From positions 1 through 29,789 of IMG/VR virus record IMGVR_UViG_3300027969_000315: a DNA stretch of 29,789 bases, one strand, 5' to 3'. Origin of the DNA: a virus. This document shows, piece after piece, positions 2,624 to 24,596 of the stretch. The notes under the pieces were generated by a model that saw nothing but the letters and a program-made list of their open reading frames with translations, did not search any database and had not been told where the DNA came from. Each line of letters starts with the position of its first letter. Within the stretch, counting starts at the first letter, position 1. Made by a program: the position numbers and the translations under genes.

Positions 2624-2625
2624 GT

Positions 2626-3240: not shown

Positions 3241-3261
3241 GTTGTTTTCACCTATACAATG

Positions 3262-3268
3262 TATTTAT
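3262..3268 (-). promoter_or_regulatory. T4-type late promoter (ATAAATA) for the 204-aa/fibre genes
   Basis: On the minus strand the gap between the giant and the 204-aa gene reads AAATAAATACATTG. ATAAATA matches seven of the eight bases of the T4 late -10 element TATAAATA and, as in T4, no -35 box is needed. Its 3' end is 22 bases from the ATG, giving a predicted leader of about 16 bases that includes the SD AGGTG. It would drive the 204-aa gene, the 815-aa fibre and the paralogue. Confidence 0.72.
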
Positions 3269-3281
3269 TTTAATAGTTTTC

Positions 3282-6200
3282 TTATACTTTATTCTTGTCC
3301 GGCAACAGAGCGTAAGTCGATCTAATAAACTTAGCCGGGTCGGACCCAGAGTCAGCTAAACCAACACCCTCTGTAGTCCATGCTTGTCCTACACGCTTTT
3401 GAACTACAATATACTGCCCTGCTTCGGGTACTTCAGTTAATCGAATTTGCATTGGCTGTTGATTACTTGTAGAAATTACTGAAAATTCTGCTTCGTATGC
3501 CTGATCACCGCTAGGGCTATCTGGACCTAAATTAGGATTCCAAATAGTATATGAGGTTTTACGCAATCTACGGCCCGCTACAAATACCTCTACATCATTA
3601 CACTGATTATATGCTGACGGTATAGTTTTTCTATACCAAGTATTATCTGCAACAGGTGTAGTTAGTTTAAAGTCTAATTGTATCTTTAGATACTTAATGC
3701 CCTTAGAAATTACTCTGCTAGTTGGTACTTGATTATTAATGTTGAATATTAATGATCCTGCTGTATTTGCACTAGTGGCCGTAACTGTAAATGTGGTCAA
3801 GCTATCAATAGATGTAATAATTGCCAATGCTCCAAAATTTCCAGTACCGGACACTTTACTAACAACTTGTCCTACAAGTAGGCCGCTTGTATTATTAGGA
3901 ATAGTTATTCCATTTTTTACATAAAAACCAGTTAGTGTAACTGTAGACACTAGTCCCGCAGTATTAACAGTACCAGCAATGGTTACAGTTTTTACATCTT
4001 CTGTTCCCTTAAACACTATAGCACCGTAGGTATTTGCAGTAGTTGATTTAATAGTAATTTGCGTATTACTATTAACTTCAGTAATTACAGTAAGGCCGCC
4101 AATTGACCCGTCGCCACTAATTTTAGTTAGTACCATACCTGCACGGAATATACTGGTAGCATTTGATAGGCTAGTTATTGTAGTAGTTAGACTTGCATCT
4201 GTTACTATGCCGCTAGCTGAAACTGTTGTAAATTGTGGTAGTGACGAAATTGGAGGATTATATATTACTAAATCATATGCGCCGACTGATTTTGCAGGAG
4301 TTACAAAAGTTAATTGTGTATTGCTTATTCTGTTAACTACACAATCAACATCACCAACAAATACCTTAACATTGATTTTAAATCCGGTTCCAGTAACAGT
4401 CACTGTTTGACTTCCAGATAAGTCAGCTGTTTGATCTTCCCCTGGGAATGTCACTGATGTTATTGTTAGTTCTGGAGAGTTAGTATAAATGCTAGCGCCA
4501 TTGGTGTAGCCGTCTGATACAGTTACTGATGAAATAAATTCATCTTTATACGGAACAGTTTGAATGACACTTTGATCTCTTACTAGAGTTCCTTCAGCAT
4601 GAACAGTTCTAACTCCAGTGCCTAAGGTGCCTCGTTTTAGTTGTCGAATAACATTGCCGTCTTTTTTCAAGTACTCAATACGTTCACTATCAATAAAAAC
4701 TACACCAGGTTTATTTAATCTAGCACTTGGTTCAGGTAGTACTGATCCGTCAACTAACTCTATAGAGTTGTCATAATAATTTAATGTCTTGGCTAGTGTA
4801 GTCGAAGAAGCATCATCAATTCTTGAGTAAGAATTTTTGTTTAGCATATCTTTGAATATTTTATAACCAAAACTACTTCGTGTTACTTTATTGCTAAATG
4901 CAATTATATCTATAATATCAGTTTCTACAAAACTCATAGTTGGTGTGAAACTAATATGATTCATATTGCTTTCTAATGCATAATCAACATCCGGGGTTAA
5001 TAACTTATTGTTTAGCGTTATCCAAACATATTGAGAAGCCACAGCGGGTCTACGTAATTTAATACGACCGCCGGCCAACTGATTATATCTATAATATTCT
5101 TTAGCGCCTGCAACTAGTGTTGATGCTGAAGTAGTTCTATCATACTCTCGTTCAATTTCAAGTATGTCATGGTTACTAAAGGTAATAACAGTAATTACGG
5201 TGTTGGCACTATAGTCTCCTAATAATTCAATAGATAAATTATCGTCTACGGAAATTATATTATAATCAGAATTAGAAACTATTGATAATGAAATTTTATC
5301 TCCAGTTTTTGCAACACCTTTTTTAACTTTAAGTTGGTTGTTAATTGGGAACCAAAAGTAGTCAATACCTTGTGCAATGTTTACACCGTTGACTGCTACA
5401 ATAACTGTGCTACTGTCTATGGTATTAAATGCATATCTTGAGCTGTCAACAGTATATGTTCTACTGGTGCCCGCTACTATAAAATAGAAAGTGTCAGCTG
5501 GTCTTAAAATACTGCCGGCAGTTACTACTAAGACATTATTGGCTAAAGGTTTAACAAATGCAGGATCTGTTGTTAGATCGTATATTGTGTCTACACCGTT
5601 ATGTACAATAATTTGTTTTTGTACTTTACTAATTGAGTCAACTGCTGATCCTAAAATTGTATAGTTAATAATTGCGCCGTCAATAGGTGGTTGGGCAAAT
5701 CGTATACCAATAGTTCCAACTAAGGTATATTGACTATCTGTTTTAAAAACAGTTACGTCAACTGCTTCTCCGTCAATAGTTACAAATGCTGTTGCATCGG
5801 TACTCCATCTAGCAACTGATACAAACTCATCAGTAGTTCCGTCTCCAACAAAATAATCTAAATCAAGAATATTTAAACCGTTTTGACTTAGGCTAGTAAT
5901 AACAATTTCTGAGCCAACCGGGTAAGATGTTATTAATTCAATTTGATTTGTAGTTATATTAACTGAATAATCAACGTTTTGTTTAATAACATTTCCAGCA
6001 ACTTTTACAATAACAGAAGATGACGTTCCTGGACGCTGGCCAATGTCATAGGCATTACTAGCAGGAGCATAGTTGTTACTAGCAATAATTATTGGAAAAC
6101 CGGTAGGGTTTGCAGGCCAAGTACCTGTTAATGTATAGACGTTGGTGCCGCCTTGTGGCCCACTAATGCTACTAATAGCAACATTACTTGGTCCTCCATT

Positions 6201-9200
6201 AAAGCTAAGACGATAATTACTAGGGTTAGATATAATAGCAGACGCCCAATTTGGATTAGGAAGCCCGACTGTTAATGAGTTTGTCTGTACAGTGGTGCCG
6301 CCGGGTCCGTTGCTTGGTGCTGTGTAACTAAATCCAATATCACCTGCAATTAGATAACGATTGCTTTCAATTACAGGAGCACCGTCACCAATTTTATGGT
6401 AGACTGTGATATCAACAGTATCTACTACTTGACCAGTAACTACTTCTTCTGGAGCATAGCTCGAAGTGGGCGTAACAAATCCGTCACCGTCAACATTAAT
6501 GTCCTCTGCGGCTAAACCGGTAGCACTTACATAGGCAAAATCTCCGCCAAATAATTGAGTGTCATATTGTATATCACTGGGTTTAAAACTGCCATCACTG
6601 GTATTCTTTCTCAATATAATACTATCCCCAGCCTGAATGTCTATACCATATGCTGTGGTAAATGTTGCATTATTAGGTATTACAATTGGTCCGGTACTTA
6701 CGCCATCACCAATAAAGGAATTCATAATAGCATCTTGATTTACAATACTTGGGAAATTCCCAATTTCATTTTGTACAGTATTAACCTTTCCACTAATTGT
6801 AACTGTGGCCCCTGGAGTTATTACCCCAGCAGTTGTTACAACATCAAATCTATTGTTTCCAGTAGCCAATGCTTTAGCGTATGTGCTTGTTAAACGCACA
6901 CTGGTATTGTTAATAACTTCACCAATGTAATAAGTAGTGCCAGAAACATATCCTTGAATAGAACCATTGCTTAGTGTTCCGGTTATTCTAATACTTTGTC
7001 CAACTAATCTTAAACCACTTGGTAAAATTAATCTTCCAAAAATGTCAAATATTTGTACAGAAGCAATGATGCTTGTTCCTTCGTATGCAACTAGTTGACT
7101 AGCACCGGTAGCTATTAGAGCAATTGCGTTGTCTCTAGCAAATTGTGCGGTAACTGCATTTTGCTGAGTAACAATATAATCTGAATTTAAATTATCGTAT
7201 ATGGCCTGCTTGGCATCTTTTACTTCTTGTCGTTGATCTATTAACTGTTGATCACCAAAAACAATTGCATTGTCTAATGCAATTTGCGCTTGAAGCAATA
7301 AAGCTTCGGCGGCAGTTCTAGCATCAAATAGTATATCAAGTTGGCGTGTTAGATCCGCAAGTAATGCAATATTAAAGTCTTTATCTTCTTGAGCAGTGGC
7401 TAAGCCATTTACAATAGCTAGTTTTTCATTTTTAACAGCAATTAATTTGTCAAGTAAGGGTTTAACTTTAATATAATTTGGATCGTCTAGTCGTCTATTA
7501 AAAGTCTCTGTTGTTCTAAACGAGTATACTCCAGACGCTGCCTGCACTAATGCTTTGGTTAATGTTATTTTTGCGCCGACAATGTCTGATACAATAGTAT
7601 TTGACTGAATACCGGTTCCTAAAACTAACTGACCTTTTTTAATTCCATTAGCGTTGGTAACAGATAAAGAAGAACTATTAACATCTCCGGTACCTAGCGG
7701 AGTTGCTGTAATATAACTCCTATTGCCGGTCCAATATACGTTAATATATTCTATTTCTGTAGGCGCATAGTTTAAGGTAAATGACCTAGCAATGCCGTCA
7801 CTCTTAATTAAGAAGTCTGTAAAGTCTGGATCAAATTGATCGTAGCCTGTAGTAAACCAAGGCAATGCATCATATCCCGAGCCTACATCAAAACCAATAC
7901 CTGCAATTTCTACACCGCCGTAATCAACGCCTTGCATTAGTTGTCCAAGGTCTTTGCCCAGCTGGCCAGACTTAGGATTATAAAAATAATTGATTCTATC
8001 GGCCGCATCTAACAAGCTAATATTTTTGTGGTACTCAATTACAACTTTAGATAAGTTTGCTGGTGCAGAATTAAACTGTAATATTCCTTTATAACGAGGA
8101 TATGAGTAACTAGAATCAAGTTCGTTGAATACTATATAATCAGCTCCTAAAATTTCTCCGTTATTGTCAGCTATTGTAGTACGTGTTTTAATAACATCAA
8201 TTGGCCATTTTAATTCAAATCTAGTTTTAGATCCGCTGGCAATAAATGTTTCATTGGCTACAATTGAACCAAACGTATATTCTGGAGATACTCTATCAAA
8301 TTTAATACCAATCTTTGTTGATCGTACTAGACTGTTAGATAATATAGCCACTGCTCTAGCAGGAGTGCCGCCGTCAGCAAGTGATCCTTCTATTCTGATA
8401 GTAGGAGTTACTAGGAAATTTTCTTTGAACGGATCGCTAATAACAATAGTAGAAATTCGACCAGATGATAGATACGCTTTAGCAGTAATAGTAGCAGGCG
8501 CCGGTTCAATAGTTACAATAGGAGCGGTTACATAGCCCGATCCACTGTCTACTATTCGTATTTCTGTTAAATTAAATCCAGTACTGTATAACCAATCACT
8601 GTATGGGGATTGTTTAATGTCGTCACTACTGTATGTTAATATACCATCTGAAATACTAGTTTGAAACGGTATTACTGTATTAGTAGTCTGATCATATTTT
8701 GGAGGTAAATCAAAGTCAGACACTTGACTGCCTGTTGGTTCAAAAATTTCATAGGTGCTAACGAACTCACGAATTTTACTTCTGTAAGGTTTAGCCTCAT
8801 TAATATATTCTTGATAGCTAGGCAAGTTATCGTTTTGATATGTGGGTTTTTGTTTTAAAGGGCCAAGATTATGCTTTGATCGTACAAAACTTGTTTTAAA
8901 GGCCCAGTCAATAGACTTTTGCTCACTAAACGCATATCTTAAACTAGCAAAGAATAATTCTTTATATTCTTTAGCCAAGTTATCAACAAAAATTATATTT
9001 TTAATTGTATTAAGAATAACTGTTAATTCAGCTTTAGGTTGATCGTCAAATACGTAAGAGTCAAATGTTGGGCCGTCAAAGCCTTCTGCATTATCTGCAA
9101 AGCGATATAGATTATCAGTGAACTTAATTGTGCCAGACTGACGTCCAACAATTTTATAATTAACTGTTGTTTCAAGAACTTCTTGATTGTCAATTTTTTC

Positions 9201-12200
9201 TAATAGTACCCAACCGCCAATACCTTGATTATTAACCTTTACTATTTCGCCAATTTCAATATTGGCGCTAGGTAATTGATATGCAAAATCAAGAATATGA
9301 TCTAATTTAGTAAACTCACTGTATCCTGCAGAATACCAATCAATATATTTCCAATAACGAGTAGTGTCATATGTTTGTGAACGTTCTCTAAACCATGTTT
9401 TCTTTAAAGAATTCCATGTGTATAGTGCCCATCTATTGTTTGCAGTTTCATCCGAGGTAACTAAAACAGATAGTGTTCTTACAGATAAAGTAGTTGATTC
9501 AAGGTATCCGTTACCTGGTTTGTCAACGGTTGCTGAAATAATTTGACCTTTTGATCCAAGTATAGTGGTAATCTTTGCGCCGGTACCTATTCCAGTAATA
9601 GTCACTTCAGGCGGATTAATATATCCTTTGCCCGAAGTTATTATGTTAACTCTAACAAGTTTTCCGTTTTCAATTACTGGAGATAGTACTGCTCTAACAA
9701 TCTCATTTGTTCCTACAAATCTAATTTGACTGTAAGAACTAATTTCATAGTCATATTTTCCTGAACCTAAACTTGGTGCTTCATCTTTAGAATTTAAGCT
9801 AGTAAGATCAACATCATCTATTATAGATTGTGCGGCCATTACAGAATTAACACGTTCAATAAACTGTTTAAGTGCTTCAACTCTATTAACAAACATACTT
9901 TGTCTTGGTCGACTCTGAATTCCGTATTTTAATTTTACTGGAAGTTTTGCATCAGGGACTTCGTTGCCTAACTTATCAAAGCCCGATAAACTGTCAATCC
10001 ATTTTTGTTCAATGTATTTGTTAATTGGTTTATCAATGTCACTTGTAGATAGTAATTGATAGTGACTATGTATATTTGATTGTTCAAAATTATCAATAAT
10101 CCAGTAACGAACATTTAACGATACTTTTCTGCTAGCAATTAGATCTTTACAATTGACTAACGAGAACTGATTTGCACCATGGAACGATATGAAGCTAACT
10201 CCCATATTTTTAGGACTGCTAATATAGTTTGCAACATCTCTAGCAGAAACTGCTCTACCGACTACATTTGGTACTGTAACTTTATTTTTAACCCAGAAAT
10301 AATATATGTTTTTAAATGTTTTACTAATTGTATCAAAGATTTTACTAATACTGTAAACAGTACTTCCATATTTGCTAGTACCACTAATACCAAGAGTTAA
10401 TCCTGCTTCAGTGTCAGCTAATCTATCCCATTCTGATGGAGTGTATTCGCTTTGAACCCATTCGTATATACTCACTAATTGATTTTCAAACAGCGTATTC
10501 CATGAGTTAGCTTTATATAATATAGGACCTTGATTGGGATCAATAAACTTGGCGCTACTTAAATCCCACCATAATTGACCAACATTTTTTTCTTTCCAAC
10601 TCATTAGTGTATCTACTACTACTGTATCGTCACCGATTGAGTAGGTTGCTGGATCATAGTATGTTTTAAATTTTAATTCATTTTCAGCAATACTTAAGAT
10701 TTTGCCCTGTAAAGGATCTACAATATCAAGATATGTAATTATACTACTATCTTCAATGTCATATAAGAATACAGATTTAATTTTATCTATATTAACTAAT
10801 TGGCTAGGAGTTCTAAATTTATACCAAGATTTATTTTCAGAATAAAATTCATGAACAGCGCCGTTTAGTATATTGTAATCACTAATGTACACTCTGTCTG
10901 ACATGGCAATTGAAGATCCGTAATTAGATCCAACCGCATCGCCTACATCTAAACTATCAGAGAAAATAAATTTATTTTCGTAGTAATCATATAACATTAC
11001 ACTACCTGATCCTAATTCAGTTTCTAAAAACGTAGTAGCATCTAGGTCAAAAACAGTCTTATTATTATCAAATTGTGTACAAGATAATTGACGTCCGCCG
11101 GCACTGGCAATTGCTAGTTGGTCTCCAACTGTATTAAATTTAACAGTTGATCCAAAATATTCACTACCTCTATTATAAGGATTACTTAATTTTTCTTTAA
11201 GTACATATTCTCCAGGAGTGTATGCTTCCTTAACATTAACAACTAGAGTAGCAGTAGCATCGTCATACGAGGTTACAACACCAACCATATAATTAGATTT
11301 GTCATCTGTGCCGGTTGGCAAGATATGTGTAATAGTAACACCTTGTAGATCTAAAATATTTAAAGGCTTTGGTATAATCTCTGTTGATGGATTAGAATTG
11401 TAATTTGTACCTCTAGTTAATAATTCGCCGGCAACAACTGCACCAGTTGACAGATTAACTTGTGTAACTTTATAAGTTGCTTTGCCATCGCCACCTGAGA
11501 TAAAGACAACATCATTTACTGCGTAGCCGGTTCCTGAATTAGCAATTCCAGGATTTGCTCGTAACGTTCCAAATGTTGCAACTACGTTTAATCGTAATCC
11601 AGTTCCGCTCTTTCGTACAGTAAAAGTTTTTATTCCAGGTTCAATTTTTATGCTAGTTGTACTAGAAGTTGTTACTCCTGGTAATACAACAGACCATGCA
11701 GTAAATGCAGAAGGAATATTATAGTATACTTCAACTGCTCCTTCGTTTAGATGAGCATTAGAGTATGTTGGTGCTCCTATTGCTAATTTGCCGCCATCTT
11801 TAGATACTGCGATAGTAGAACCAAAACTTGATTTTGCTGGTAGTGTAGATTCTATAGTTTGTACGTCTTTATTAAATTCGTAATTATTAGAATAGTTCCA
11901 TACACGAATTTTATCATTTCCATTAATTGAAGCGTCACTAAAAGAAAGAATAACATTACCGTTGGCAGCTACTGACATGTCTTTTAATTCAAGGCTGGCC
12001 GCAAATTCAGAAGTGAATACCACCGGAGCTCCAACTGTTGCACTACTGCTAACAAAGGTTGAGTCGAGGGCATTTGCTACAAGTTTTGAAACGTAATATA
12101 CAGTCAACGAAGGTGCAACAGTTGCGGATCCTTTTGATGCTACAAATAATTTATCACCTACTATTGCTACCTTATGTCCAAAAAATTGATTATTTGTTCT

Positions 12201-15200
12201 AGTAGGTGCAGTTACTAAATTTGAAAATACATAATATCCGTTAGCGTTGCGAGTGTATAACACTACGTACCCATGATTAGCATATACTGGCATTGCTCCT
12301 GTACGATTTTCTAATACAAAAACTTCTCCTCCAGGAGTAGCTGATATTGTAAAACGGATTGGATCTATAATTTGTGACACATAATATGTTTTGCCAGCAA
12401 CTATAGTACCAAGTGCAGTATTTGAAAAGACAATTGGTCCATTGACAATAAAATTAGCAGTAGTTCCTGCTGCCAATATCAGTCTATTACCGTTTGATGT
12501 TGTTGATCCCACAACTAACGGTGAAGCATTGGCGGCCGGTGCTCCTGCGGCCAAGTAAAGACCATCGCCTCTAACGGCAGTTGATGCGGCAAATGAATTA
12601 TTTGTCAACAGTATTGTTGGATTAGGATTGTTAGCATCCTGTGTGGTAACAGGACTTAATTCTTCTCTGTATGCCCAGTTAGACTTGGCAGTAGGTCTAG
12701 TATAGTATAGCATACTATTTTCTATCGAGACAATCATTACGGTACTAACTTCATTTACTGATACACTAATACCAAAGTGTGATTTGTTATTAGCAACTGT
12801 TGTTAGATTGTAGCTGTTTTGATATTTCCAAACTGCCCACTGATTATCGGTGCCGTCTACCCAGACTAAGTCACCGTCTTTCTTAGAGGCTATTCCTAGA
12901 TTATTAATAATTTCAATTGACGGTACTCGTACTGATACAAACTTGTATAAATTTAAAGTTAAGTCAACCGTATCTGCGGTGTTAAGCAATTTTGGTTTAT
13001 CAAATTCAATATAATCTACACCAACCGCAGTAACTTTATAAAATCCTTCTAGCGTTGCTATAGAATTGTTGATACCAATGTAGCTGTCAACGGTAATATC
13101 AGTATCGACAACTCTGTTTAATGTGATTCGAATAGTATTTTGTGTGATTACAAATTTTCTAATTACATTTTCAAATAATGTAAAACGATAAACATTCCAA
13201 GTATTTTTATCATTAGCAGTCCAGAAATAATATCCATCGTTTAGTTTGGTTATATCAATGGATAATATTTCATCTATAGTGTTTAATTTGTATTCAACAT
13301 CTTCAGCGTTGACATATCCCGCCGTTGATACATAGTAATTTGGCAACTGATGAGTTTCAAATGGTGCATGTGAATATGTCTTGCTCTTTAGGTAAACTTG
13401 GTCGGGCAAAATTCTATAAACAAAATCTAATAATGTGTTATCAATGGATTTAACTAGTTCAACAGGCTGAGGATTAATTAAGAACTTAATTTCATCTAGT
13501 CTAAACTCAACTTCATCAAATCCAGCGTTGGCTCCATACTGTCCTATACGGATAGCCCACTCTTCATAAAATTCTAAACTTTCTTTAGTGCTAGTGCTTA
13601 ATGCGTCAAACAACTTAGCAAAACTATTTTCTGTTCCCTTTTCAGTAATGAAGCCTTGATAAAACTTATATTGACTTACATCATCATTGATAATATTTTC
13701 AAGATACTGGCGTTTTTGGTAACCAATAAGATGTTGTGCAAATTTTTGTTGGTCTAGATCAAAACTGTCAGTATCTAAGTCATAGAAGTCAGGAAATTGA
13801 TTAGCTCGGTAATCCCAGTTAGGAATTAACTTAGGTTCAGGTCTAGCTTCTAACTTATTCCACTCTGAATGATTAAATTGTTCGCTGCCAGGAACATTAG
13901 TCTTTGCGCTATAATAAAATTCTTTGTACTTAACAGCATCGCCTAATTTGTAATCAGTCCACACGTTCCAAAATTTAACTATTGCACGGTCGTAAATAAA
14001 TCCTGGAATATCAAAATCTCCATTCCAGTTAGTTGTTCTATATCCAACTACCTTAATACGTTCTTGTCTATATCCCTGTATTTGATCATATATCAAATCA
14101 TTGAATATAGTAGTGTTATCTAAAATAAGAACGTGTTCTTTTTGTACTAAATTTAAAGTAGCATGGTAAATGCCGTCAGCAGTATTTTTAGGAGACAGGG
14201 TGAATAAATTGCCTTCTCTAGTATTACCTGTGTACAACGAAGACAGTGCTGTGCCGTCTTGTTTTAATACTGAATATTCATAAAAACTGTCGTATATGTT
14301 ATCAACTACTGAATATTTCTGACTAAATTTAACTTCTTCAGCACAAGGGCTTACGCTTATTACTGCGCCAAGTGACCAATTTTGAGTAGTCCAGAATGCA
14401 AATTCTTTTGCACTAGTTTGAAAATCAGTTATTGTTCTAATAGTAGAATTAAAATTTTCAAACAGAACGCCAATTGATTTTAAGTAGGCGCCGTAGCCTA
14501 ATAAAAAATCAACCACTTCTTGAATAGTTCTTAATTCTGCACCGTAATGTAATGTAGAAACAACGTCTTCAAACTTTGTTCTAATAACAATTTGTCTGCC
14601 GCCGGTTAGAGGTAACGATGGCAATTTGGCAAAATATTTTATTTCAAATACTGACGATGCTTGATGCGATACCGTTGTCCTGTAATACTGATTATTAAAA
14701 AATATAATTTTATCTTTGGTATAATACTGATTAGCAGTCCAGTCACTAAAACTGGCAGATACGCCACCTATATTAATTTCAGAATCGTGATTAATTATTC
14801 GAGGTTTTAAATATTTAAATGCTGGAAGAAATTTATTATAACCTCGAATAACAAAGCCAGTTGTTGCTTTTTCTATAATTACTGCGCTGTAATCAATAGA
14901 CGATACGGGACTACTGGTATTAAGAATTATATTGTAGTTCTCTTCTGGTATAAACACATTGCCTGTGTTTAACGGATTACGACTATCTAATATTAATTTA
15001 AATTTTTCTTTAGTGGTAAATCCGCCAAGTTTGCTTGACAGACGAACTACGAGATTCGTTAGCTCATTTTTGTAGACTGAAATTTCCGAAAGAGATTGTC
15101 TTCCAATAATATAATCAGTAATATAATTTACTAGTCCAGCAGTATGTACTCTAGATGCACTATCCGATGTGCTAGGAGTAATTAAATTGGCAACATTAAA

Positions 15201-18200
15201 TCTTAAATTTCCGTTATCAACTTTATAAACTATTTGTCTAGTATCATCTCTATACTGTCGAGTACGATCAAAACAACTGGCAAATACTTGAGAAGGCCTT
15301 AAAATAGTCAATGCTGTTATTAAAGAGAATGGGTACTCTGCACTACGTCTCCATGCAGATTCAATCGGTGCTTGGTCTCCAAATCTAAATTTACCTTCAA
15401 TTAATGACGATGTATAACCGTCAATGATTCCAATGTCGCTAGGAGCTAGTAACTCGCCATCTTCATTTACCGGTAGCATTGATAATAGATAAGGTCTTAG
15501 AAATTTAGTGTTCTTAACAAAATTAGTACCAGGCGATCTAACAATACCATCGGCTAGATCATTCCATAAAATTAAGTTGTTACTAGTGTATGGTGCAGGA
15601 CCGTACTCAGCTTCCCACCAAGTTGGCTTGATACTGAACCCTAACATTTCCCATGGATGAGTGTGTGGGCGGTCAGTGTCGTATACTAATTTAAATATAC
15701 CTCTCCAGAATCCAGGAAGTTCTGTACCAGTTGACGATCTAAATTCTCTATAATTATAAGTTTTTGGATTATTACGTACAAAGAAAGAATGTTTAGTATA
15801 GTCGTCGGCTATTAAATTTGACCAGTGCAGGAAGTCTCCTGCCATAATGCTGTTTAGGTCGTCAAACGATACATCAGTAGTTCTGTTATACCCCGGAACA
15901 AAATCATAGATATCAAATAAACTGGTATCATATGCAACCTTAATATTGTTATAAATTCTGCGTTCAAATTCTAATAACAGGTCATCTCTAAAATCATCAA
16001 ATGCTACTATGATACTGCCGTCGTGTCCTTGAATAACTTTAGTCGGTGTTTGGTATGTGTTATCAATAAAAATTTGAGGTTCAAACTTAGGATACAATCC
16101 ATACTTTGTTGGGGTTGGTGGTAAGAAGCATCCGTCTGTTTTTTCATATTGTACAATTTTTAAATTGTCGCCAGATGCAATAGTTGATATAATTTTTACA
16201 AAATTAACGTCAACAAATTCATAATCTTTACCGTAGACTAACAAATTGTCATTCACATATACAAGTATAGCACGTTCACTAGCAGTAGTTAGATCAAAGT
16301 CAAAAATCAAAGGATACTCAGTAATAGAGTCATCAATAATTTCTTGCTCAAAAATAAAGCTAGGGCCCGCAGGTATCATATCGCTTAGATAGTACGGGCT
16401 AGCTGTTGTAAAGTCTTTAACTACTTCTTTTAAAATTAAATCTAGATGAATTCGTGTTACACCGTCATATCCGTAATCAGTTGCCTTACGCAATAGATTT
16501 CTTTTAAATTTTGCATAATCAAGTCTAGCTGTTTTTAATGCATTAATTACATTATAATTTTTATTAGTAATATGATATGCTATAGGCAACAACGGTGCGG
16601 CATGCTGAACGATCTTTGTTCCTAGCGGAGTAATATTTCCTAGATCTCGAAGACTAGCTGATCCAGGCACTGTGCCTATAAACGAATCAATATTGTCCGC
16701 AATTGAGCTTACATGGTTATTAATTTCACCTAGTGTAAATGTATCTAAGTTTAAGTTTTGAGGATTATGTTCTAAGTTAGATGGAAATTCATAATACCCA
16801 TTAATTTTTGGTGCTGACGAATTTGTTTTGAGTATTAACACATCATCAACGGCTAAATCCTTAAAGAATTCAACGTAGGCTTGATTGTTGATAATGCTGA
16901 TTGTATACTCAGTATTATATTTTCTTTGTCCGTTTACATATACTCTAACTGTTAAATCAGTTAATAACCCACTGTCTGCATATGCATCAATTAAAAACAT
17001 ATTACGTACTTGGTCAATTACATATTGTCTAACAACATATTGTTTAGTTTTTGTAGCGGCAATTGACCAACCGTTGGCGTGGTCAAACGAGGTTAATGTA
17101 TTATTAATGCGTAGATAACCTAGTTCTATATCAATAGGTGCTACTAAAGTTGTATTACTTTGATAGGTGTGCTTGTCTGTATGAAGATTAAAATTAAAAA
17201 CGATGTCTCCAAAATTTCCAATATTCCTATATGTAACATTAAATCCCAGTTCAGTATCATATGTGGTACCAGGCTGGTAACTGAATAATTTTGTTCCGCT
17301 AAATGTAGTTCCGGGATACTTTGTTGTATCTCCGTAACTTATTCCGGTAGGATCTACTACTTCAAATAACGGGCTTTGATTAATGTTAGTCTTGGCCTGA
17401 CTCTGCATCCAGGTGCCATCCATATAATGGAACATTGCTCCTTTATAACTACGGCCGTCTGTTACTAAAACACTTTCGCCGTCCTGTGGGTCAGTATCAT
17501 CCGTAGGTAATAATGTGATTCTGCGTTGTCCTAGATGGGTAACAAAACTTACTGTAAATATTCTACCAGAAACTCTAACGTCAGTGTCTGCTGTAAATAG
17601 CACACGCATGCCTTCAACTAGATTAATGTTATCAACATTATATCCATAGCTACCTTCAACTGTAGAAAATACATCTGTAGTAAAGGTATCAACTAATGTT
17701 ACATTCTGTTTAGCAATGCGTCCAAAATTCCATAATTGAATGTTTGAATTAAATTCAATAATAGGGCGTTTAGCTCTTGCTGTTTGATCTAATATTAGTG
17801 GTTGATTATTTGCTGTTGCAGATGCTTCAATTAAATTTTTGTGGAACCAGCGGTTATGGCGACTCCATGGATTTCTATCCTTGCTTCCTCTATTAATAAC
17901 TAGGTAATCTTTATTTGCGGGGAAATTATTGTTTACATCAAATCCCTGTGTATCAAAATTTTCATTATCAAATTCAACTTCTAAATCAGAAGTATATGCA
18001 GACGGTGTTTCAAGATCTTTTTCTGCTACTAATCTAATGGCTGTGCCGACCCCTTCAACATACCAATTACCAGTTGCATATATTTCAGGAGTTACTTGTC
18101 CAGGGAACGATAATTTCATTCCGTTGGATAGAGTAGTTCCACTACTAGTAGTGTAATATTTTTTACCAATGATCTCAGTGTCAACTTCTATAAAAGTTGA

Positions 18201-19064
18201 TTCGGTGATATCAAAAACTGTAAAGTACCCAGAGGTGTTTATATCAGTGTCACTAACATAATACAAAATGTTAGGAGCATTTAACGGCACGGTAAATTCA
18301 ATTGACCCTTTTTTAACATGAGTAGTAGAAGGAACAATTACATTTTTATCATTTCTTATTGTGATGCCGTTAGTGTATAAATCTGCATCGCCTATAGTTC
18401 TAACAGTCTTAAATGCAAATGGACGGTCTTCACAATCTATTTCAAAAGTATAAGTTTGTCCTCGATATAGTTTAAATTTAGGGTTTGCTGTTAGACCGTC
18501 AGGAGTAAACAAATAAGAAATATTATCAACTTCATTGATCAATTTAACAGTATATGTGCTGTTAATATCTGCCGACTGCCCTAACACTGTAATTGGTTGC
18601 GGACCATTTGGTAGCCAATAGTATTCTCTATAGTTAACAAATTTGTCCCAGTCAATATTGGGATTCCATGCATAGTATTCTTCACTGTTGACTTTGCTAT
18701 GATCTAAAGTAGTTCCTGCAAAGAAATTTAACTGATTGATATAATCATTATAATCTTTAAAAAATGTAACATTATCTAAAGAATCTTTAGAGATAATAGC
18801 AGGCTCAAGTTGGTACGCGGCTCTGTCAACACTGACTTCTTCTAAGTATCGGTCTGCTGATGTAAATGCAGGCGTGTTTTTACGACCAATAAAAGCGTTT
18901 ACTTTTCCAACAGTTCCTTCGTTGATCATTTGATCAACTGTAGCACTTAAGAACTTTTGATTTGCAGGAGTTCTATAATACTTGGGAAGAAAATCTAATG
19001 ACGTTCTTTTATTATTGTCGCCAATAGGTAACGCTGATTCTTGTTGGTTGTTATCGAATGCCAT
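3282..19064 (-). CDS. Giant virion structural protein, probable baseplate periphery (5260 aa)
   Basis: It lies where T4 has gene 7, directly after gp6, but T4 gp7 is only 1032 aa. The N-terminus (LDFLPKYYRTPANQKFL, then EYYAWNPNIDW and NYREYYWLPNGP within about 1-155) and a block near 1740-1842 (AQHLIGYQKRQYLENIINDD) resemble structural proteins of cyanophages and pelagiphages. Other parts, with rough residues: two carbohydrate-binding-module-like W/Y motifs (1438-1465, 1700-1735); seven FG-GAP-like propeller motifs (2097-2730); GxGY repeats (2511-3520); a helical coiled coil (3856-3995); VNG/DY beta repeats (706, 935, 3640, 4351-4680); an IPT/TIG domain (4861-4935); a tandem beta repeat (4954-5110). 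No signal peptide, membrane helix or enzyme motif was seen. SD AAGGAA (19071-19076) lies 6 bases before the ATG. A gp7-like wedge role for the N-terminus is inferred from position only. Confidence 0.85.
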   Translation of the reverse strand: MAFDNNQQESALPIGDNNKRTSLDFLPKYYRTPANQKFLSATVDQMINEGTVGKVNAFIGRKNTPAFTSADRYLEEVSVDRAAYQLEPAIISKDSLDNVTFFKDYNDYINQLNFFAGTTLDHSKVNSEEYYAWNPNIDWDKFVNYREYYWLPNGPQPITVLGQSADINSTYTVKLINEVDNISYLFTPDGLTANPKFKLYRGQTYTFEIDCEDRPFAFKTVRTIGDADLYTNGITIRNDKNVIVPSTTHVKKGSIEFTVPLNAPNILYYVSDTDINTSGYFTVFDITESTFIEVDTEIIGKKYYTTSSGTTLSNGMKLSFPGQVTPEIYATGNWYVEGVGTAIRLVAEKDLETPSAYTSDLEVEFDNENFDTQGFDVNNNFPANKDYLVINRGSKDRNPWSRHNRWFHKNLIEASATANNQPLILDQTARAKRPIIEFNSNIQLWNFGRIAKQNVTLVDTFTTDVFSTVEGSYGYNVDNINLVEGMRVLFTADTDVRVSGRIFTVSFVTHLGQRRITLLPTDDTDPQDGESVLVTDGRSYKGAMFHYMDGTWMQSQAKTNINQSPLFEVVDPTGISYGDTTKYPGTTFSGTKLFSYQPGTTYDTELGFNVTYRNIGNFGDIVFNFNLHTDKHTYQSNTTLVAPIDIELGYLRINNTLTSFDHANGWSIAATKTKQYVVRQYVIDQVRNMFLIDAYADSGLLTDLTVRVYVNGQRKYNTEYTISIINNQAYVEFFKDLAVDDVLILKTNSSAPKINGYYEFPSNLEHNPQNLNLDTFTLGEINNHVSSIADNIDSFIGTVPGSASLRDLGNITPLGTKIVQHAAPLLPIAYHITNKNYNVINALKTARLDYAKFKRNLLRKATDYGYDGVTRIHLDLILKEVVKDFTTASPYYLSDMIPAGPSFIFEQEIIDDSITEYPLIFDFDLTTASERAILVYVNDNLLVYGKDYEFVDVNFVKIISTIASGDNLKIVQYEKTDGCFLPPTPTKYGLYPKFEPQIFIDNTYQTPTKVIQGHDGSIIVAFDDFRDDLLLEFERRIYNNIKVAYDTSLFDIYDFVPGYNRTTDVSFDDLNSIMAGDFLHWSNLIADDYTKHSFFVRNNPKTYNYREFRSSTGTELPGFWRGIFKLVYDTDRPHTHPWEMLGFSIKPTWWEAEYGPAPYTSNNLILWNDLADGIVRSPGTNFVKNTKFLRPYLLSMLPVNEDGELLAPSDIGIIDGYTSSLIEGKFRFGDQAPIESAWRRSAEYPFSLITALTILRPSQVFASCFDRTRQYRDDTRQIVYKVDNGNLRFNVANLITPSTSDSASRVHTAGLVNYITDYIIGRQSLSEISVYKNELTNLVVRLSSKLGGFTTKEKFKLILDSRNPLNTGNVFIPEENYNIILNTSSPVSSIDYSAVIIEKATTGFVIRGYNKFLPAFKYLKPRIINHDSEINIGGVSASFSDWTANQYYTKDKIIFFNNQYYRTTVSHQASSVFEIKYFAKLPSLPLTGGRQIVIRTKFEDVVSTLHYGAELRTIQEVVDFLLGYGAYLKSIGVLFENFNSTIRTITDFQTSAKEFAFWTTQNWSLGAVISVSPCAEEVKFSQKYSVVDNIYDSFYEYSVLKQDGTALSSLYTGNTREGNLFTLSPKNTADGIYHATLNLVQKEHVLILDNTTIFNDLIYDQIQGYRQERIKVVGYRTTNWNGDFDIPGFIYDRAIVKFWNVWTDYKLGDAVKYKEFYYSAKTNVPGSEQFNHSEWNKLEARPEPKLIPNWDYRANQFPDFYDLDTDSFDLDQQKFAQHLIGYQKRQYLENIINDDVSQYKFYQGFITEKGTENSFAKLFDALSTSTKESLEFYEEWAIRIGQYGANAGFDEVEFRLDEIKFLINPQPVELVKSIDNTLLDFVYRILPDQVYLKSKTYSHAPFETHQLPNYYVSTAGYVNAEDVEYKLNTIDEILSIDITKLNDGYYFWTANDKNTWNVYRFTLFENVIRKFVITQNTIRITLNRVVDTDITVDSYIGINNSIATLEGFYKVTAVGVDYIEFDKPKLLNTADTVDLTLNLYKFVSVRVPSIEIINNLGIASKKDGDLVWVDGTDNQWAVWKYQNSYNLTTVANNKSHFGISVSVNEVSTVMIVSIENSMLYYTRPTAKSNWAYREELSPVTTQDANNPNPTILLTNNSFAASTAVRGDGLYLAAGAPAANASPLVVGSTTSNGNRLILAAGTTANFIVNGPIVFSNTALGTIVAGKTYYVSQIIDPIRFTISATPGGEVFVLENRTGAMPVYANHGYVVLYTRNANGYYVFSNLVTAPTRTNNQFFGHKVAIVGDKLFVASKGSATVAPSLTVYYVSKLVANALDSTFVSSSATVGAPVVFTSEFAASLELKDMSVAANGNVILSFSDASINGNDKIRVWNYSNNYEFNKDVQTIESTLPAKSSFGSTIAVSKDGGKLAIGAPTYSNAHLNEGAVEVYYNIPSAFTAWSVVLPGVTTSSTTSIKIEPGIKTFTVRKSGTGLRLNVVATFGTLRANPGIANSGTGYAVNDVVFISGGDGKATYKVTQVNLSTGAVVAGELLTRGTNYNSNPSTEIIPKPLNILDLQGVTITHILPTGTDDKSNYMVGVVTSYDDATATLVVNVKEAYTPGEYVLKEKLSNPYNRGSEYFGSTVKFNTVGDQLAIASAGGRQLSCTQFDNNKTVFDLDATTFLETELGSGSVMLYDYYENKFIFSDSLDVGDAVGSNYGSSIAMSDRVYISDYNILNGAVHEFYSENKSWYKFRTPSQLVNIDKIKSVFLYDIEDSSIITYLDIVDPLQGKILSIAENELKFKTYYDPATYSIGDDTVVVDTLMSWKEKNVGQLWWDLSSAKFIDPNQGPILYKANSWNTLFENQLVSIYEWVQSEYTPSEWDRLADTEAGLTLGISGTSKYGSTVYSISKIFDTISKTFKNIYYFWVKNKVTVPNVVGRAVSARDVANYISSPKNMGVSFISFHGANQFSLVNCKDLIASRKVSLNVRYWIIDNFEQSNIHSHYQLLSTSDIDKPINKYIEQKWIDSLSGFDKLGNEVPDAKLPVKLKYGIQSRPRQSMFVNRVEALKQFIERVNSVMAAQSIIDDVDLTSLNSKDEAPSLGSGKYDYEISSYSQIRFVGTNEIVRAVLSPVIENGKLVRVNIITSGKGYINPPEVTITGIGTGAKITTILGSKGQIISATVDKPGNGYLESTTLSVRTLSVLVTSDETANNRWALYTWNSLKKTWFRERSQTYDTTRYWKYIDWYSAGYSEFTKLDHILDFAYQLPSANIEIGEIVKVNNQGIGGWVLLEKIDNQEVLETTVNYKIVGRQSGTIKFTDNLYRFADNAEGFDGPTFDSYVFDDQPKAELTVILNTIKNIIFVDNLAKEYKELFFASLRYAFSEQKSIDWAFKTSFVRSKHNLGPLKQKPTYQNDNLPSYQEYINEAKPYRSKIREFVSTYEIFEPTGSQVSDFDLPPKYDQTTNTVIPFQTSISDGILTYSSDDIKQSPYSDWLYSTGFNLTEIRIVDSGSGYVTAPIVTIEPAPATITAKAYLSSGRISTIVISDPFKENFLVTPTIRIEGSLADGGTPARAVAILSNSLVRSTKIGIKFDRVSPEYTFGSIVANETFIASGSKTRFELKWPIDVIKTRTTIADNNGEILGADYIVFNELDSSYSYPRYKGILQFNSAPANLSKVVIEYHKNISLLDAADRINYFYNPKSGQLGKDLGQLMQGVDYGGVEIAGIGFDVGSGYDALPWFTTGYDQFDPDFTDFLIKSDGIARSFTLNYAPTEIEYINVYWTGNRSYITATPLGTGDVNSSSLSVTNANGIKKGQLVLGTGIQSNTIVSDIVGAKITLTKALVQAASGVYSFRTTETFNRRLDDPNYIKVKPLLDKLIAVKNEKLAIVNGLATAQEDKDFNIALLADLTRQLDILFDARTAAEALLLQAQIALDNAIVFGDQQLIDQRQEVKDAKQAIYDNLNSDYIVTQQNAVTAQFARDNAIALIATGASQLVAYEGTSIIASVQIFDIFGRLILPSGLRLVGQSIRITGTLSNGSIQGYVSGTTYYIGEVINNTSVRLTSTYAKALATGNNRFDVVTTAGVITPGATVTISGKVNTVQNEIGNFPSIVNQDAIMNSFIGDGVSTGPIVIPNNATFTTAYGIDIQAGDSIILRKNTSDGSFKPSDIQYDTQLFGGDFAYVSATGLAAEDINVDGDGFVTPTSSYAPEEVVTGQVVDTVDITVYHKIGDGAPVIESNRYLIAGDIGFSYTAPSNGPGGTTVQTNSLTVGLPNPNWASAIISNPSNYRLSFNGGPSNVAISSISGPQGGTNVYTLTGTWPANPTGFPIIIASNNYAPASNAYDIGQRPGTSSSVIVKVAGNVIKQNVDYSVNITTNQIELITSYPVGSEIVITSLSQNGLNILDLDYFVGDGTTDEFVSVARWSTDATAFVTIDGEAVDVTVFKTDSQYTLVGTIGIRFAQPPIDGAIINYTILGSAVDSISKVQKQIIVHNGVDTIYDLTTDPAFVKPLANNVLVVTAGSILRPADTFYFIVAGTSRTYTVDSSRYAFNTIDSSTVIVAVNGVNIAQGIDYFWFPINNQLKVKKGVAKTGDKISLSIVSNSDYNIISVDDNLSIELLGDYSANTVITVITFSNHDILEIEREYDRTTSASTLVAGAKEYYRYNQLAGGRIKLRRPAVASQYVWITLNNKLLTPDVDYALESNMNHISFTPTMSFVETDIIDIIAFSNKVTRSSFGYKIFKDMLNKNSYSRIDDASSTTLAKTLNYYDNSIELVDGSVLPEPSARLNKPGVVFIDSERIEYLKKDGNVIRQLKRGTLGTGVRTVHAEGTLVRDQSVIQTVPYKDEFISSVTVSDGYTNGASIYTNSPELTITSVTFPGEDQTADLSGSQTVTVTGTGFKINVKVFVGDVDCVVNRISNTQLTFVTPAKSVGAYDLVIYNPPISSLPQFTTVSASGIVTDASLTTTITSLSNATSIFRAGMVLTKISGDGSIGGLTVITEVNSNTQITIKSTTANTYGAIVFKGTEDVKTVTIAGTVNTAGLVSTVTLTGFYVKNGITIPNNTSGLLVGQVVSKVSGTGNFGALAIITSIDSLTTFTVTATSANTAGSLIFNINNQVPTSRVISKGIKYLKIQLDFKLTTPVADNTWYRKTIPSAYNQCNDVEVFVAGRRLRKTSYTIWNPNLGPDSPSGDQAYEAEFSVISTSNQQPMQIRLTEVPEAGQYIVVQKRVGQAWTTEGVGLADSGSDPAKFIRSTYALLPDKNKV
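3735..4205 (-). repeat. Tandem duplicated beta-repeat in the giant protein
   Basis: Two adjacent protein repeats lie at about residues 4954-5020 and 5030-5110. Matching stretches are GMVLTKISGDGSIGG and GQVVSKVSGTGNFGA, then VITEVNSNTQITI and IITSIDSLTTFTV, each closed by ANTxGxxxF. Base identity is low, so the duplication is old or under diversifying drift. It follows the IPT/TIG-like domain directly. Confidence 0.7.
7080..7500 (-). other. Coiled-coil segment inside the giant protein
   Basis: About 140 residues (3856-3995) lack the beta-type alternation of the rest and are rich in Ala, Leu, Gln, Asp and Lys with heptad-like hydrophobic spacing, for example LLDKLIAVKNEKLAIVNGL and LTRQLDILFDARTAAEALLL. 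There is no proline after about residue 3865. This predicts a long helical hairpin or coiled coil that could form a stalk or trimer interface; the oligomeric role is inferred. Confidence 0.7.
10870..12780 (-). repeat. Seven FG-GAP-like repeats (putative beta-propeller) in the giant protein
   Basis: Repeats begin near residues 2097 (FGISVSVNEVSTVMIVS), 2158 (STAVRGDGLYLAAGAP), 2294 (FGHKVAIVGDKLFVAS), 2357 (LKDMSVAANGNVILSF), 2412 (FGSTIAVSKDGGKLAIGAP), 2636 (FGSTVKFNTVGDQLAIAS) and 2714 (YGSSIAMSDRVYIS). The form FGxxVAxxGDxLxxGAP followed by a V-x-VY strand is that of integrin-like FG-GAP blades. Spacing is 55-80 residues except for two large insertions, between repeats 2 and 3 and between 5 and 6. 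Confidence 0.6.
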
Positions 19065-19078
19065 GTAATATTCCTTCT

Positions 19079-22000
19079 TTACGCACTTGTGATGTCATTG
19101 TTGTTTAACGGAATTGATGTTAGTACTGTGCCGCTTGCATTAATTCTTGCCGCGGTAATCTCTGAAATAATCTCAATCTCATCAACTGTTGCAGAGCTAA
19201 TTAGTAACTCGTCTGCATTTGATGTTATTTCAAATAGACTACCAAACGCTAAATCTTGTTGTTTTGGTACAATTACTATGTTTACTAGATTAGGACTTAG
19301 TTGACGAATAATGTATGCAGATAGTTCTCCAAAATAGAACGTGTCTCCAAATTCCCAATTTTCTAAAGCAAAAAATTCGTTAATTGCAGTTATGACTCCA
19401 GACTTAATGTCATTATCACTTATTACTACATTAGAATTTTTTACCACTTTAAATATACCTTGTAAGCTGGCTGCGGCATTTTTACCAAATAAAGGTTTGT
19501 ATTTTGCAGGGTGGTAAACGATTTCGTCGCTTATTGATTTTACTTTGTTGATATTGGTACTAAAATTTGTGTATAGTGAGTCACTGCTAGGAGGTAACGG
19601 TTTAGTAGGCACCTCACCTGCAAGCCATCGTCTGTATGATACATCATATGTTTTAGTTAACATAAAAATATCTATAATGTTTGTTGCGGCCGGATCTAAT
19701 CTTGATGCGTTGTCTGCGGCATGTATGTACTGAAATTTTAAATTGTCTCTGCCTAAGAAACCTCTATATTCATTGGTAATTACAAAGCTAGTTGATGCCT
19801 TGTTAAATGTCTTAACTAGATTTTCTTTAATAATATAAATTAATTGGCCGTCATCTAGTGTTAAAGGAACCGCTTCTTGACTTAGATATACTTTGATTAG
19901 ATCATTAATATTTTCAATATAATAAAAATCTGTGGAACCGTCTAGTGCCACTTGACGCTTTTGAAAAATAAATTTAGATGTAGTATTTGTTGAAGGGCTA
20001 ACAATATTTTTAAATAATTCTGGATCGTCAACTATACCGTCTTCGTTGCTGTCAAAGAAACTAATAGAGATTTTCTTAGTGTCAATATATCCGTCACTGC
20101 CTAAATATTCGTCAATAATTTCCCAATCAAAGTTTTGATTAAACGCAGATAACACATCCGGCTGTGTATTAATACTCATCACCGAAATTTTATCCCTAAT
20201 TACTTTTCCCGTAGATGGATCATAAACTTTAGAAGTACTGTCAAAGAAAAATCTCATTTCTTTAAAACTTTCAAATACATATCTTAAGCCGCGGTATGTT
20301 GCAAGATACGAAGTTCCGTCAGTTTCAAATAATAATATCCAGCTTGCATCAAGTTGTTGATTACTCGAATCGCCTGTTTTTCCTAGGCTAAATGAAGATT
20401 TTTTGTCAATGTTAGATTCTGTAATAATTTTCCATACAGTACTTGCGCTGTCATATCTTAGAGCAAAATTTTTATTGGCTGCAATTAGATCGATAATTTT
20501 ATTCTTAACACTATCTTCAAGTGCAGTAACAAACTTAGGTACCGCAGTGTCACAAACTGCGCCCGTGGGCACAATTTCGTTTAAGATTACTGGGCCTAGT
20601 CCGGTAGGTAATATGCCAGTATTTTTTGCCGAGCCGTCACCGACTACCTGTACAACTCGTGTCCAAATTCCTGTTTTGGCAGATACTGGTGCACCAGCCT
20701 CGTCAATTAGTTTATTATCACTACTGAATAATTTGCCAGGAGGCGGCGTAAATTTTAACATTGCTCCGGGAATGATAAATCTTAAATTTGAAAATGTAGA
20801 AGATCCTAATTTTTTAATTGCAGTAGTCTGCGTATTATCATTAATATACCCAGTTGATATATTTGTAGCAGAAGTGACTTGTGTAAAAGAAGAAAATGCA
20901 ACCCCCAACGATACAAATGCATAGCTGTCTAAATAAAAATCTTTAATTGTACGACTAGCAAGTACTGGTTCAATTTGATTTAATACTGCATTTTCAATAT
21001 CAGTTCTAGTGTTGTATGAAAATTTAAAACTGCCAATGATAGGTTCTTTGTATAAGATACCGTCTGTTCCAAACAAATTAGTATGGCTATATTTTCCGGT
21101 AGAGTCTTTTAGGTCAAAGTATCTACTGATGCCAGAACTTACTCGATTAACTGATTTAACTTTAATAATTTCTTGGTTAACACTCAGCGGAAATACGTTA
21201 TAATCTTCACCGGTAATCATACGGTTTTGTGTATAGTATGTTGCTGGTGCGTTAGTTTTGATGCTGTCACTTGTTTCGCTTACAGAAGCATTTTGAACAG
21301 TGTAATTTAGTCCGGCCGAAACTGATAGTATTTCTTGCTTGCCAGATTTGTTACTGATGTAGGGAATATCAAATGTTACGTTTTTAATATTAGAAGGACT
21401 AATTGCATATTCAAAACCATTACTGACTCTGTAGTATACTCTAAAATTACCTTGAGGCAAATCACCAAAGGTGCCGTCGGCAAAGTTTAAACGAACACGA
21501 TCGCCGGTACGTGTAATTACTGAAAATATTTTTCTAACACTTTTAGAAAGGGAATTATATATGATGTTGTTACCTTCGACTGCATCAACTTTTGTCCATT
21601 CTTGAGATAGTAGGCCGGCACTGTCTAAGCTGTACAACCAAATATCTGAGTTATTAATATTAGAACTGTCTAAGTCAACAGTTTCATTTGTACTTGGTCG
21701 TTGGATAGAAAATGTTCCTTGGTTTAGACTTCCCTGACGGAAGTGAACAAAGAATCCAGTGTTAGTGCTAGGAGATCCACCACCGTCGTCGCGATATAAG
21801 AATGCCAAGTTAGTACCAGGCATTGGTGGTTCTTCATAGATGTTTAGAGAATTTTTAATTGCACAAGATACAATTTCAAAATTCATATTTCTGCCATCGA
21901 TGTTTTTAGTAAATCCATAAATTGGAGTGTCAGTATTAGTTGCATTAAATCGATACTGCTGTGTTCTAATACCTGCAATTATTCCAGAATCTTGTGGTTT

Positions 22001-22513: not shown

Positions 22514-22532
22514 ACTCAGTCCTCATTATAGA

Positions 22533-22539
22533 TATTTAT
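22533..22539 (-). promoter_or_regulatory. T4-type late promoter (ATAAATA) for gp6
   Basis: In the 50-base gap between gp25 and gp6 the minus strand reads CGATAAATATCTATAATGAG. ATAAATA ends 20 bases before the gp6 ATG, leaving a predicted 13-14 base leader with the SD GAGGA. It would drive gp6 and the giant gene. Confidence 0.7.
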
Positions 22540-22551
22540 CGTATAGATAAA
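22535..22551. repeat. Inverted repeat overlapping the gp6 late promoter
   Basis: TTTATC, five bases, GATAAA: a perfect 6-base inverted repeat with one arm inside the ATAAATA element. The stem is A/T-rich and has no T-run after it, so it is a poor terminator. It could be a protein site or chance in AT-rich DNA. Confidence 0.35.
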
Positions 22552-22563
22552 GTGGGCAGTTTA

Positions 22564-23007: not shown

Positions 23008-23012
23008 AGTAG

Positions 23013-23019
23013 TATTTAT
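23013..23019 (-). promoter_or_regulatory. T4-type late promoter overlapping the gp5 stop, for gp25
   Basis: The minus strand reads AATAAATACTACTATG, where the last three bases are the gp25 start. ATAAATACTACT resembles the extended T4 late consensus (TATAAATACTATT) and a 13-base stretch is identical to the tube-cap promoter. The element contains the gp5 TAA stop and ends only 6 bases before the ATG, against 20-23 bases at the other three sites, so the predicted transcript starts at or next to the AUG. Confidence 0.65.
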
Positions 23020-24593: not shown

Positions 24594-24596
24594 AAA

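Follow-up and report, generated by a model that had tools for sequence, protein, structure and literature searches.

The minus-strand open reading frame (ORF) at positions 3282-19064 of the IMG/VR virus record IMGVR_UViG_3300027969_000315 encodes a giant protein of 5260 residues that is probably the gp7-type baseplate wedge subunit of a jumbo phage of the RaK2/PA5oct/Atu_ph07 type. The record is a genome fragment of 29,789 bases and is treated here over its whole length (the window). The assignment, which comes from sequence comparison, draws on three things: the gene follows those for a gp25-type wedge protein and gp6, the slot of gene 7, its product carries the core motif of gp7 at residues 1803-1828, and its homologues have been reported in virions. 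In T4, gp7 together with two gp6 chains forms the core of a wedge; the hub is encircled by six such wedges, which relay the contraction signal to the sheath. The link that the motif makes between a jumbo-phage 'virion structural protein' and gp7 is what is new here. Unless stated otherwise, all features below lie on the minus strand.

The giant frame begins with ATG, contains no internal stop and starts 14 bases from the end of gp6, with the sequence AAGGAA, which resembles a ribosome site, shortly 5' of the ATG. The mass calculated from the sequence is 582.8 kDa. In a codon comparison with three close relatives, carried out in bins of up to 500 residues, silent codon changes exceeded amino-acid changes in 11 of 11 bins covering residues 1-5260, and hence the frame is translated over its full length; alignment gaps with the same relatives fall mainly at residues 4001-5000. 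The single uninterrupted frame of 15.8 kb directly after gp6 that was described when the window was first read (the original prediction) is therefore confirmed and, as judged from these substitution patterns, is a genuine gene; its product is a tail-baseplate protein of 5260 residues.

The position of the gene is strongly conserved. A gp6 homologue lies directly upstream of the giant in all 80 metagenomic loci compared (estimated gap 8-177 bases) and in eight of nine named phages, as it does in the window. These loci were taken from IMG/VR, where the N-terminal 200 residues of the giant identified 326 confirmed stretches and residues 1480-1900 identified 375, with 80 kept for analysis from each set. 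On the downstream side, a homologue of the 204-residue gene that follows the giant in the window is present in 20 of the 20 metagenomic loci that include this end, and in PA5oct, Atu_ph07, Phosso, Vibrio 2.275.O and SCTP-2, while none was found in the loci read of RaK2, PBECO4 and GAP32. The proposed place of the giant at the gp7 position of a baseplate cluster, directly behind the gp25-type gene and gp6, is thus borne out.

A short motif is common to the gp7 proteins of T4, Vibrio VH7D and cyanophages. Its pattern is FYxxKG(T/I)xxSxxxLF (the KGT motif), and the T4 version is 'DFYSTKGIEASYKFLFKVLY' around residue 738. Of 33 gp7-slot sequences collected, 31 were built into a profile that contains no jumbo-phage members, Yut3 and Melnitz-3 being left out as carriers of a variant motif that the regular expression missed, and this profile was compared by hhalign with a full-length profile of 29 giants. 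The sole clear place over 5260 columns corresponds to residues 1803-1828 (13581-13658; score 27.8, expectation value (E) 0.0024), with the next best place at a score of 12.1 and E 0.86. At matched settings none of 500 column shuffles reached the real score (best 24.1), and reversed profiles gave 13.2 and 14.8. With match columns set differently the real score was 27.2, against maxima of 23.8 and 25.4 in two batches of 500 shuffles and 23.3 in 60, and reversed profiles gave 12.0 and 12.6. The same place was recovered, in comparisons without shuffles of their own, by 21 metagenomic members alone (E 0.0049), by the eight named members alone (E 0.015) and by the window protein alone (E 0.0096). 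When fewer sequences were used, hhalign yielded E values of 0.043 and 0.23 at this place. Against the gp7 motif profile, the remaining eight minus-strand proteins encoded in the window reached E 0.10 or worse. A split core, in which the conserved N-terminal block would be the first half of gp7 followed by an insertion of ~1600 residues, was rejected; its best place (833-863) scored 20.0, level with the 18.7 and 19.6 of reversed profiles.

Evidence that the protein is part of the particle comes from its homologues. The record of PA5oct gp355 carries a note of electrospray ionization tandem mass spectrometry (ESI-MS/MS). In phAPEC6, gp245 (381.88 kDa, 17 unique peptides, 7.6% coverage) is listed directly after the wedge protein gp244 (131 kDa, 21 unique peptides), and its authors state that phAPEC6 may be regarded as belonging to the same species as PBECO4 (PMC7247149). 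Because of its place, its size and this relationship to PBECO4, whose giant is of 383.1 kDa, gp245 would be the giant homologue of phAPEC6. CBB_236, which our locus comparison identifies as the giant of CBB, is listed with 21 unique peptides and 7.72% coverage in the CBB paper (PMC5259590). The expectation of a structural protein thus holds for homologues as reported in PA5oct, phAPEC6 and CBB virions, with peptide data that do not tell a whole chain from pieces. Taken with the slot and the core motif, these reports make the gp7 role that had been proposed for the giant likely.

By profile match over much of the chain, the giant is a member of PHROG 10938, 'virion structural protein' (E 1.2e-247 for the first half and 3.1e-74 for the second). 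Its N-terminal 1000 residues match 57 phage records, all at <60% identity and with some phages counted twice (GenBank and RefSeq), including PA5oct, Atu_ph07, SCTP-2, GAP32, CBB, 121Q, PBECO4 and RaK2. Where an annotation is given for these homologues it is mostly 'hypothetical', 'structural' or 'virion structural', and none of the 57 records names the protein gp7 or baseplate. We found no literature that treats the jumbo-phage giant as gp7, in a search that took in few subscription journals, and do not claim that none exists. Viral contigs scanned with the Atu_ph07 block yielded only Atu_ph07 itself, and those scanned with the Vibrio 2.275.O block yielded no match.

The size of the protein had been regarded as exceptional, which a survey of homologues sharing the N-terminal block does not support. 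Eight whole homologues in named phages have 3326, 3333, 3341, 3771, 3807, 3857, 4449 and 4555 residues. All 31 larger metagenomic records, some of which look near-identical, carry the N-terminus, and 29 of them have open frames of 4477-5381 residues; the two remaining frames (3628 and 3745 residues) run off the contig. Counted from the initiating methionine, twenty whole metagenomic genes encode 4472-5371 residues. Three carrier contigs exceed 200 kb, the longest being 278 kb, and at least those are therefore jumbo phages. Giant proteins annotated as gp7 are, moreover, already on the public record in marine cyanophages: gp7 of P-SSM2 is annotated at 15,588 bases (5195 residues) and that of P-HM1 at 4446 residues. 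The 'baseplate wedge initiator' of ACG-2014f is 4225 residues long, and a motif-bearing structural protein of ACG-2014b, counted irrespective of its place relative to gp6, reaches 6422 residues. Given these proteins and the lengths of its relatives, 5260 residues is ordinary for the group.

Across other T4-like phages the motif-bearing proteins directly after gp6 range from 503 to 5195 residues, and the PHROG profiles that match gp7-slot proteins include lengths of 497, 765, 978, 1030, 1266, 3231, 4179 and 6136. The smallest of the motif-bearing proteins, those of Yut3 (503 residues) and Melnitz-3 (896 residues), are annotated as hypothetical and have variant motifs. S-SSM7 has two gp7-named ORFs (21861-30884 and 31950-end), each of ~3000 residues, which match consecutive portions of the single P-SSM2 gp7, a pattern that splitting of one giant gp7, or fusion of two, would produce. 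In SCTP-2 (6609-15899 and 15977-27400) the giant adjoins a second very long ORF, of 3096 residues.

Conservation along the chain was measured in bins of 100 residues against 17 diverged relatives. Residues 1-2100 are covered in 17 of 17 relatives, 2601-3800 in 16 or 17, 4101-4200 in 17, 4301-4800 in 16 and 4801-4900 in 14. The variable bins are 2201-2600 (3 to 5 relatives), 3801-4100 (0 to 2), 4201-4300 (4) and 4901-5100 (1 or 2), and intermediate values are found at 2101-2200 (13) and 5101-5200 (9), with the last bin covered in 16. This pattern indicates a large conserved body with variable inserts, rather than a short conserved head followed by a free patchwork. The most conserved bin, 1701-1800, has a mean identity of 0.68 and lies in a block (residues 1701-1900, 13365-13964; 0.60 in its second bin) that aligns with eight named jumbo phages and is partly helical with low AlphaFold confidence. 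The conserved N-terminal block (residues 1-165, 18570-19064; mean identity 0.53 for 1-100 and 0.63 for 101-200) also aligns with eight named phages and has helices up to ~125, again with low model confidence. Of the variable regions, residues 2201-2600 (11265-12464) hold a weak FG-GAP match at 2413-2446, and residues 3801-4100 (6765-7664) look helical by eye at ~3856-3990.

These data modify the picture given by the original prediction. The two blocks that it singled out, residues 1-155 and 1740-1842, are conserved in jumbo phages of the RaK2/PA5oct/Atu_ph07 type, but conservation extends far more widely, over 1-2100, 2601-3800, 4101-4200 and 4301-4900. It had further seen the blocks as conserved in marine T4-like phages; no BLASTP match was found in them to four gp7-annotated proteins of three marine cyanophages, and what is common, at the profile level, is the 26-residue motif. 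The later patchwork of repeat types is likewise upheld only in part: comparison of the giant with itself by BLAST gave no internal repeat at E 1e-3, but weak copies of GxGY modules and of chitin-binding-like modules seem present, as seen by eye and hinted at in other comparisons. A permissive regular expression written for a repeated beta module matched 7 times, where shuffled sequences averaged 1.6 (maximum 6), but several of the matches are plainly not the module and no conclusion is drawn from them.

AlphaFold models built from 60-sequence alignments for residues 1-900 and 960-2000 (mean predicted local distance difference test score (pLDDT) 75.7 and 74.6, respectively) both hold confident beta domains, and the modelled part of the giant, 1-2000, is largely beta-rich or mixed. 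Residues 167-288 (18201-18566) are predicted to form a cupredoxin-like beta-sandwich, aligned by VIA-align to copper nitrite reductase (Z 10.7, root-mean-square deviation (rmsd) 2.5 Å, 108 residues), with which it would have only the fold in common. Residues 1437-1483 (14616-14756) are predicted to adopt a chitin-binding, CBM5/12-like fold, for which the best 14 matches have Z 7.1 to 6.1, the range that VIA-align calls common, over 42-47 residues with rmsd 1.2-2.2. These matches include baseplate or fibre structures of phage Milano and phage 7-7-1 (Z 7.1 and 6.7, 45-46 residues). The chitinase A1 domain gives a profile match of E 0.035 in this region, and CBM5/12 is below the Pfam cut-off in the PA5oct and Atu_ph07 homologues. 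The propeller-type FG-GAP_2 match at 2413-2446 (E 0.0019) is also below the cut-off. An IPT/TIG domain at residues 4867-4946 (4227-4466) is above it (Pfam TIG, E 3.7e-9, 36.9 bits), and the sole tandem repeat reported in the window, at 4388-4440 with a 24-base period and 2.2 copies, falls inside the region encoding this domain. Fold matches in the viral library that bear a name are mostly to uncultured phages and Atu_ph07. The helices of residues 1-125 and of the motif region (~1745-1854) are predicted with low confidence; both segments are also well conserved, and a natural guess is that they need partner chains.

Several observations weigh against a gp7 identity and must be set beside the evidence above. 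The motif comprises only 26 columns, was first noticed by eye before the test and has a modest E value. In single-sequence HMMER searches the best score in the window was 0.9 against 1.0 for the best reversed decoy with a wider motif model and -0.6 against -1.8 with a shorter one, which in GAP32 has its best place elsewhere; the wider model placed its best match at the motif in 18 of the 29 giants, elsewhere in 6 and nowhere in 5. The motif region has pLDDT values of ~28-49, which precludes a fold comparison of the core, and in SCTP-2 the giant lies ~92 kb from gp6. No N-terminal 'LP' helix ('LPeF'), which precedes the core in cyanophage-type gp7, was found above controls in the giant (best E 0.19), but this helix reaches only E 0.065 between cyanophage and T4 gp7 and is hence not a reliable marker. 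Similarly, the Pfam models Gp7_helical, Gp7_5th, Gp7_6th and Baseplate_wedge PF23786 have no match in the giant; these models also match nothing in the first 600 residues of the annotated S-SSM7 gp7, and the corresponding stretches of P-SSM2 and P-HM1 gp7 fall below the cut-offs, so that the models do not define the family. BLASTP of the giant against T4 or cyanophage gp7 found nothing in the two conserved blocks and weak module-level matches only (for example P-HM1 847-915 with window residues 3125-3192, E 4e-4). Profile searches of the sequences of solved structures returned no gp7 at E 10 with two alignments of the giant, and nothing at E 0.1 with gp6. The absence of gp7 from the 50 structure matches listed for the 960-2000 model excludes nothing. 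An alternative is a baseplate-attached protein unrelated to gp7, for example of an outer ring or an adhesin, that would occupy the slot while the gp7 core is encoded elsewhere and the KGT motif is a coincidence. The shortness of the match, its modest E value and the missing gp7 helix and Pfam domains are in keeping with this, and the window is a fragment, so that gp7 may lie elsewhere in a genome of this type, the named jumbo genomes not having been searched with the motif profile. We nevertheless consider it improbable, since the motif is a single outlier along the whole chain that beats 500 of 500 matched shuffles, holds in two member sets (21 and 8) and not in the neighbouring eight proteins, and since the slot is kept in 80 of 80 loci.

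The modular make-up of the giant, with TIG, chitin-binding-like and FG-GAP-like modules, could also be that of a long tail-fibre, whisker or 'hair' protein encoded by chance beside baseplate genes. Such an origin is very unlikely, because some three quarters of its residues fall in regions that align in 16 or more of the 17 diverged relatives. Typical host-range fibres are unlike the giant in such broad alignability. CBB, phAPEC6 and Atu_ph07 do carry unusual hair-like fibres, but in the CBB paper the hairs are left unassigned and GAP32, which has the giant, is suggested to be possibly without hairs (PMC5259590). A different question is whether the translated product is cleaved into several mature pieces, leaving no 583-kDa chain in the virion. 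The two S-SSM7 ORFs indicate that parts of a giant gp7 can be separate chains, and peptide coverage of ~8% in phAPEC6 and CBB does not show a whole chain. We regard cleavage as unlikely, given that a single frame is kept in all 29 metagenomic members with room for it and in the eight complete homologues of named phages, although no search for processing sites was made.

Thus, we favour a gp7-type wedge subunit and propose the following arrangement by analogy with T4. The conserved core around the motif at 1803-1828 would bind two copies of gp6 to form a wedge of the ring around the tube, with one giant chain per wedge and six per virion, which together would amount to ~3.5 MDa. The other long conserved stretches (to ~2100, and 2600-3800) may build the outer body of the wedge, and the variable modules (2201-2600, 3801-4100 and 4901-5100) may lie exposed on it and differ from host to host. 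Contacts with sugars, or with other proteins of the baseplate, may be made by the chitin-binding-like fold at 1437-1483. The outer skirt or antenna around the baseplate envisaged in the original prediction is a conjecture. As for how such proteins arose, we offer with more doubt than conviction the idea that gp7 grew as entire domains were added to a small wedge core, in parallel in jumbo phages and cyanophages, that an enlarged outer baseplate consists mostly of six such chains, each of about half a megadalton, and that in the jumbo lineage a separate gp8 became unnecessary and the variable modules serve as built-in host-contact sites.

The distribution of gp8 was assessed with the gp8 profile PHROG 438, which finds whole gp8 in P-SSM2, S-SSM7, P-HM1 and Melnitz-3 and pieces of T4 gp8. 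No whole gp8 was found with it in seven named jumbo genomes or three large contigs, where a distant gp8 could be missed; these contain only the middle module of gp8 (~166-301) or nothing. Judged by ORF length, some of these middle modules are inside giants (frames of 4450, 4555, 4648 and 4694 residues) and others are in ORFs of 3103-3837 residues. The earlier suggestion that the giant takes over the role of gp8 is compatible with this absence, which is no proof of it. That the giant might in addition take over the roles of fibre proteins, as had been suggested, finds no support; a separate ORF of 815 residues nearby (176-2623) matches collar/fibre families (PHROG 523, 9116, 1858 and others).

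The minus-strand genes of the window form a T4-like baseplate cluster in the order gp53-type, a 1009-residue protein, gp5-type hub, gp25-type, gp6, giant, the 204-residue gene and the 815-residue collar/fibre-type tail gene, and the late sigma factor gp55 is encoded on the plus strand at the far end of the window. The baseplate wedge protein gp6 (19079-22513, 1144 residues) matches PHROG 10646 (E 0) and PHROG 219 (E 2e-16). The 147-residue wedge protein (22564-23007) matches PHROG 261 and 43, both 'baseplate wedge subunit', and the name gp25 is our reading from its size and the gene order. The gp5-type hub protein (23016-24593, 525 residues) matches PHROG 13211 (E 2.9e-52), and the 98-residue wedge protein (27628-27924; PHROG 7145, E 3.6e-23, 'baseplate wedge subunit') is named gp53 on the basis of the annotated Vibrio 2.275.O neighbour. 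The conserved 204-residue gene downstream of the giant (2626-3240) belongs to PHROG 11259. Residues 3-220 of the 1009-residue protein (24597-27626) match the 'hub and tail lysozyme' profile PHROG 27932 at 333-527 and the 525-residue protein matches another part of it (551-742), which would suit a division of hub functions between two genes. The Pfam model Baseplate_J has no match in the window.

The motif gives a protein known mostly as 'hypothetical' or 'structural' a place and a job, that of gp7 of the wedge, and provides a precise target for cryo-electron microscopy in the cultured relatives PA5oct, RaK2, 121Q and CBB. Why one wedge subunit ranges from ~500 to >5000 residues across T4-like phages is a testable question.

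Among known systems, the giant is most directly comparable with the PHROG 10938 proteins of RaK2-like phages, PA5oct, Atu_ph07 and SCTP-2, which are of the same family and are also retrieved by profile. It is longer than the eight named jumbo-phage homologues (3326-4555 residues), which align with it by BLASTP mainly up to residue ~1970 and at 2740-3500. With gp7 of T4 (1032 residues) it has in common the slot after gp6 and the core motif, but it is five times as long, the T4 gp7 Pfam domains were not found in it, and the motif, which in T4 stands in the last third of the chain (residue 738), is near 1809. A comparison of T4-like genomes in 2010 found gp7, gp10 and gp12 so divergent that they fell into up to nine clusters (PMC3037559). 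Elsewhere it is stated that pelagi- and cyanomyophages lack T4 Gp7 and have VrlC in its place (PMC7029224); for the cyanophages, the presence of the gp7 motif in the giants that we compared speaks against this. These cyanophage proteins (P-SSM2 and P-HM1; PHROG 2885, 4406 and 701) have no end-to-end sequence match with the window giant, carry the core motif near residue 200-220 rather than near 1809, and are followed in P-SSM2 and P-HM1 by a gp8 gene rather than by the 204-residue gene of the window. They nevertheless resemble it in slot, in size and, at the profile level, in the core motif, and giants of both kinds, cyanophage and jumbo-phage, contain a middle module of the gp8 profile.

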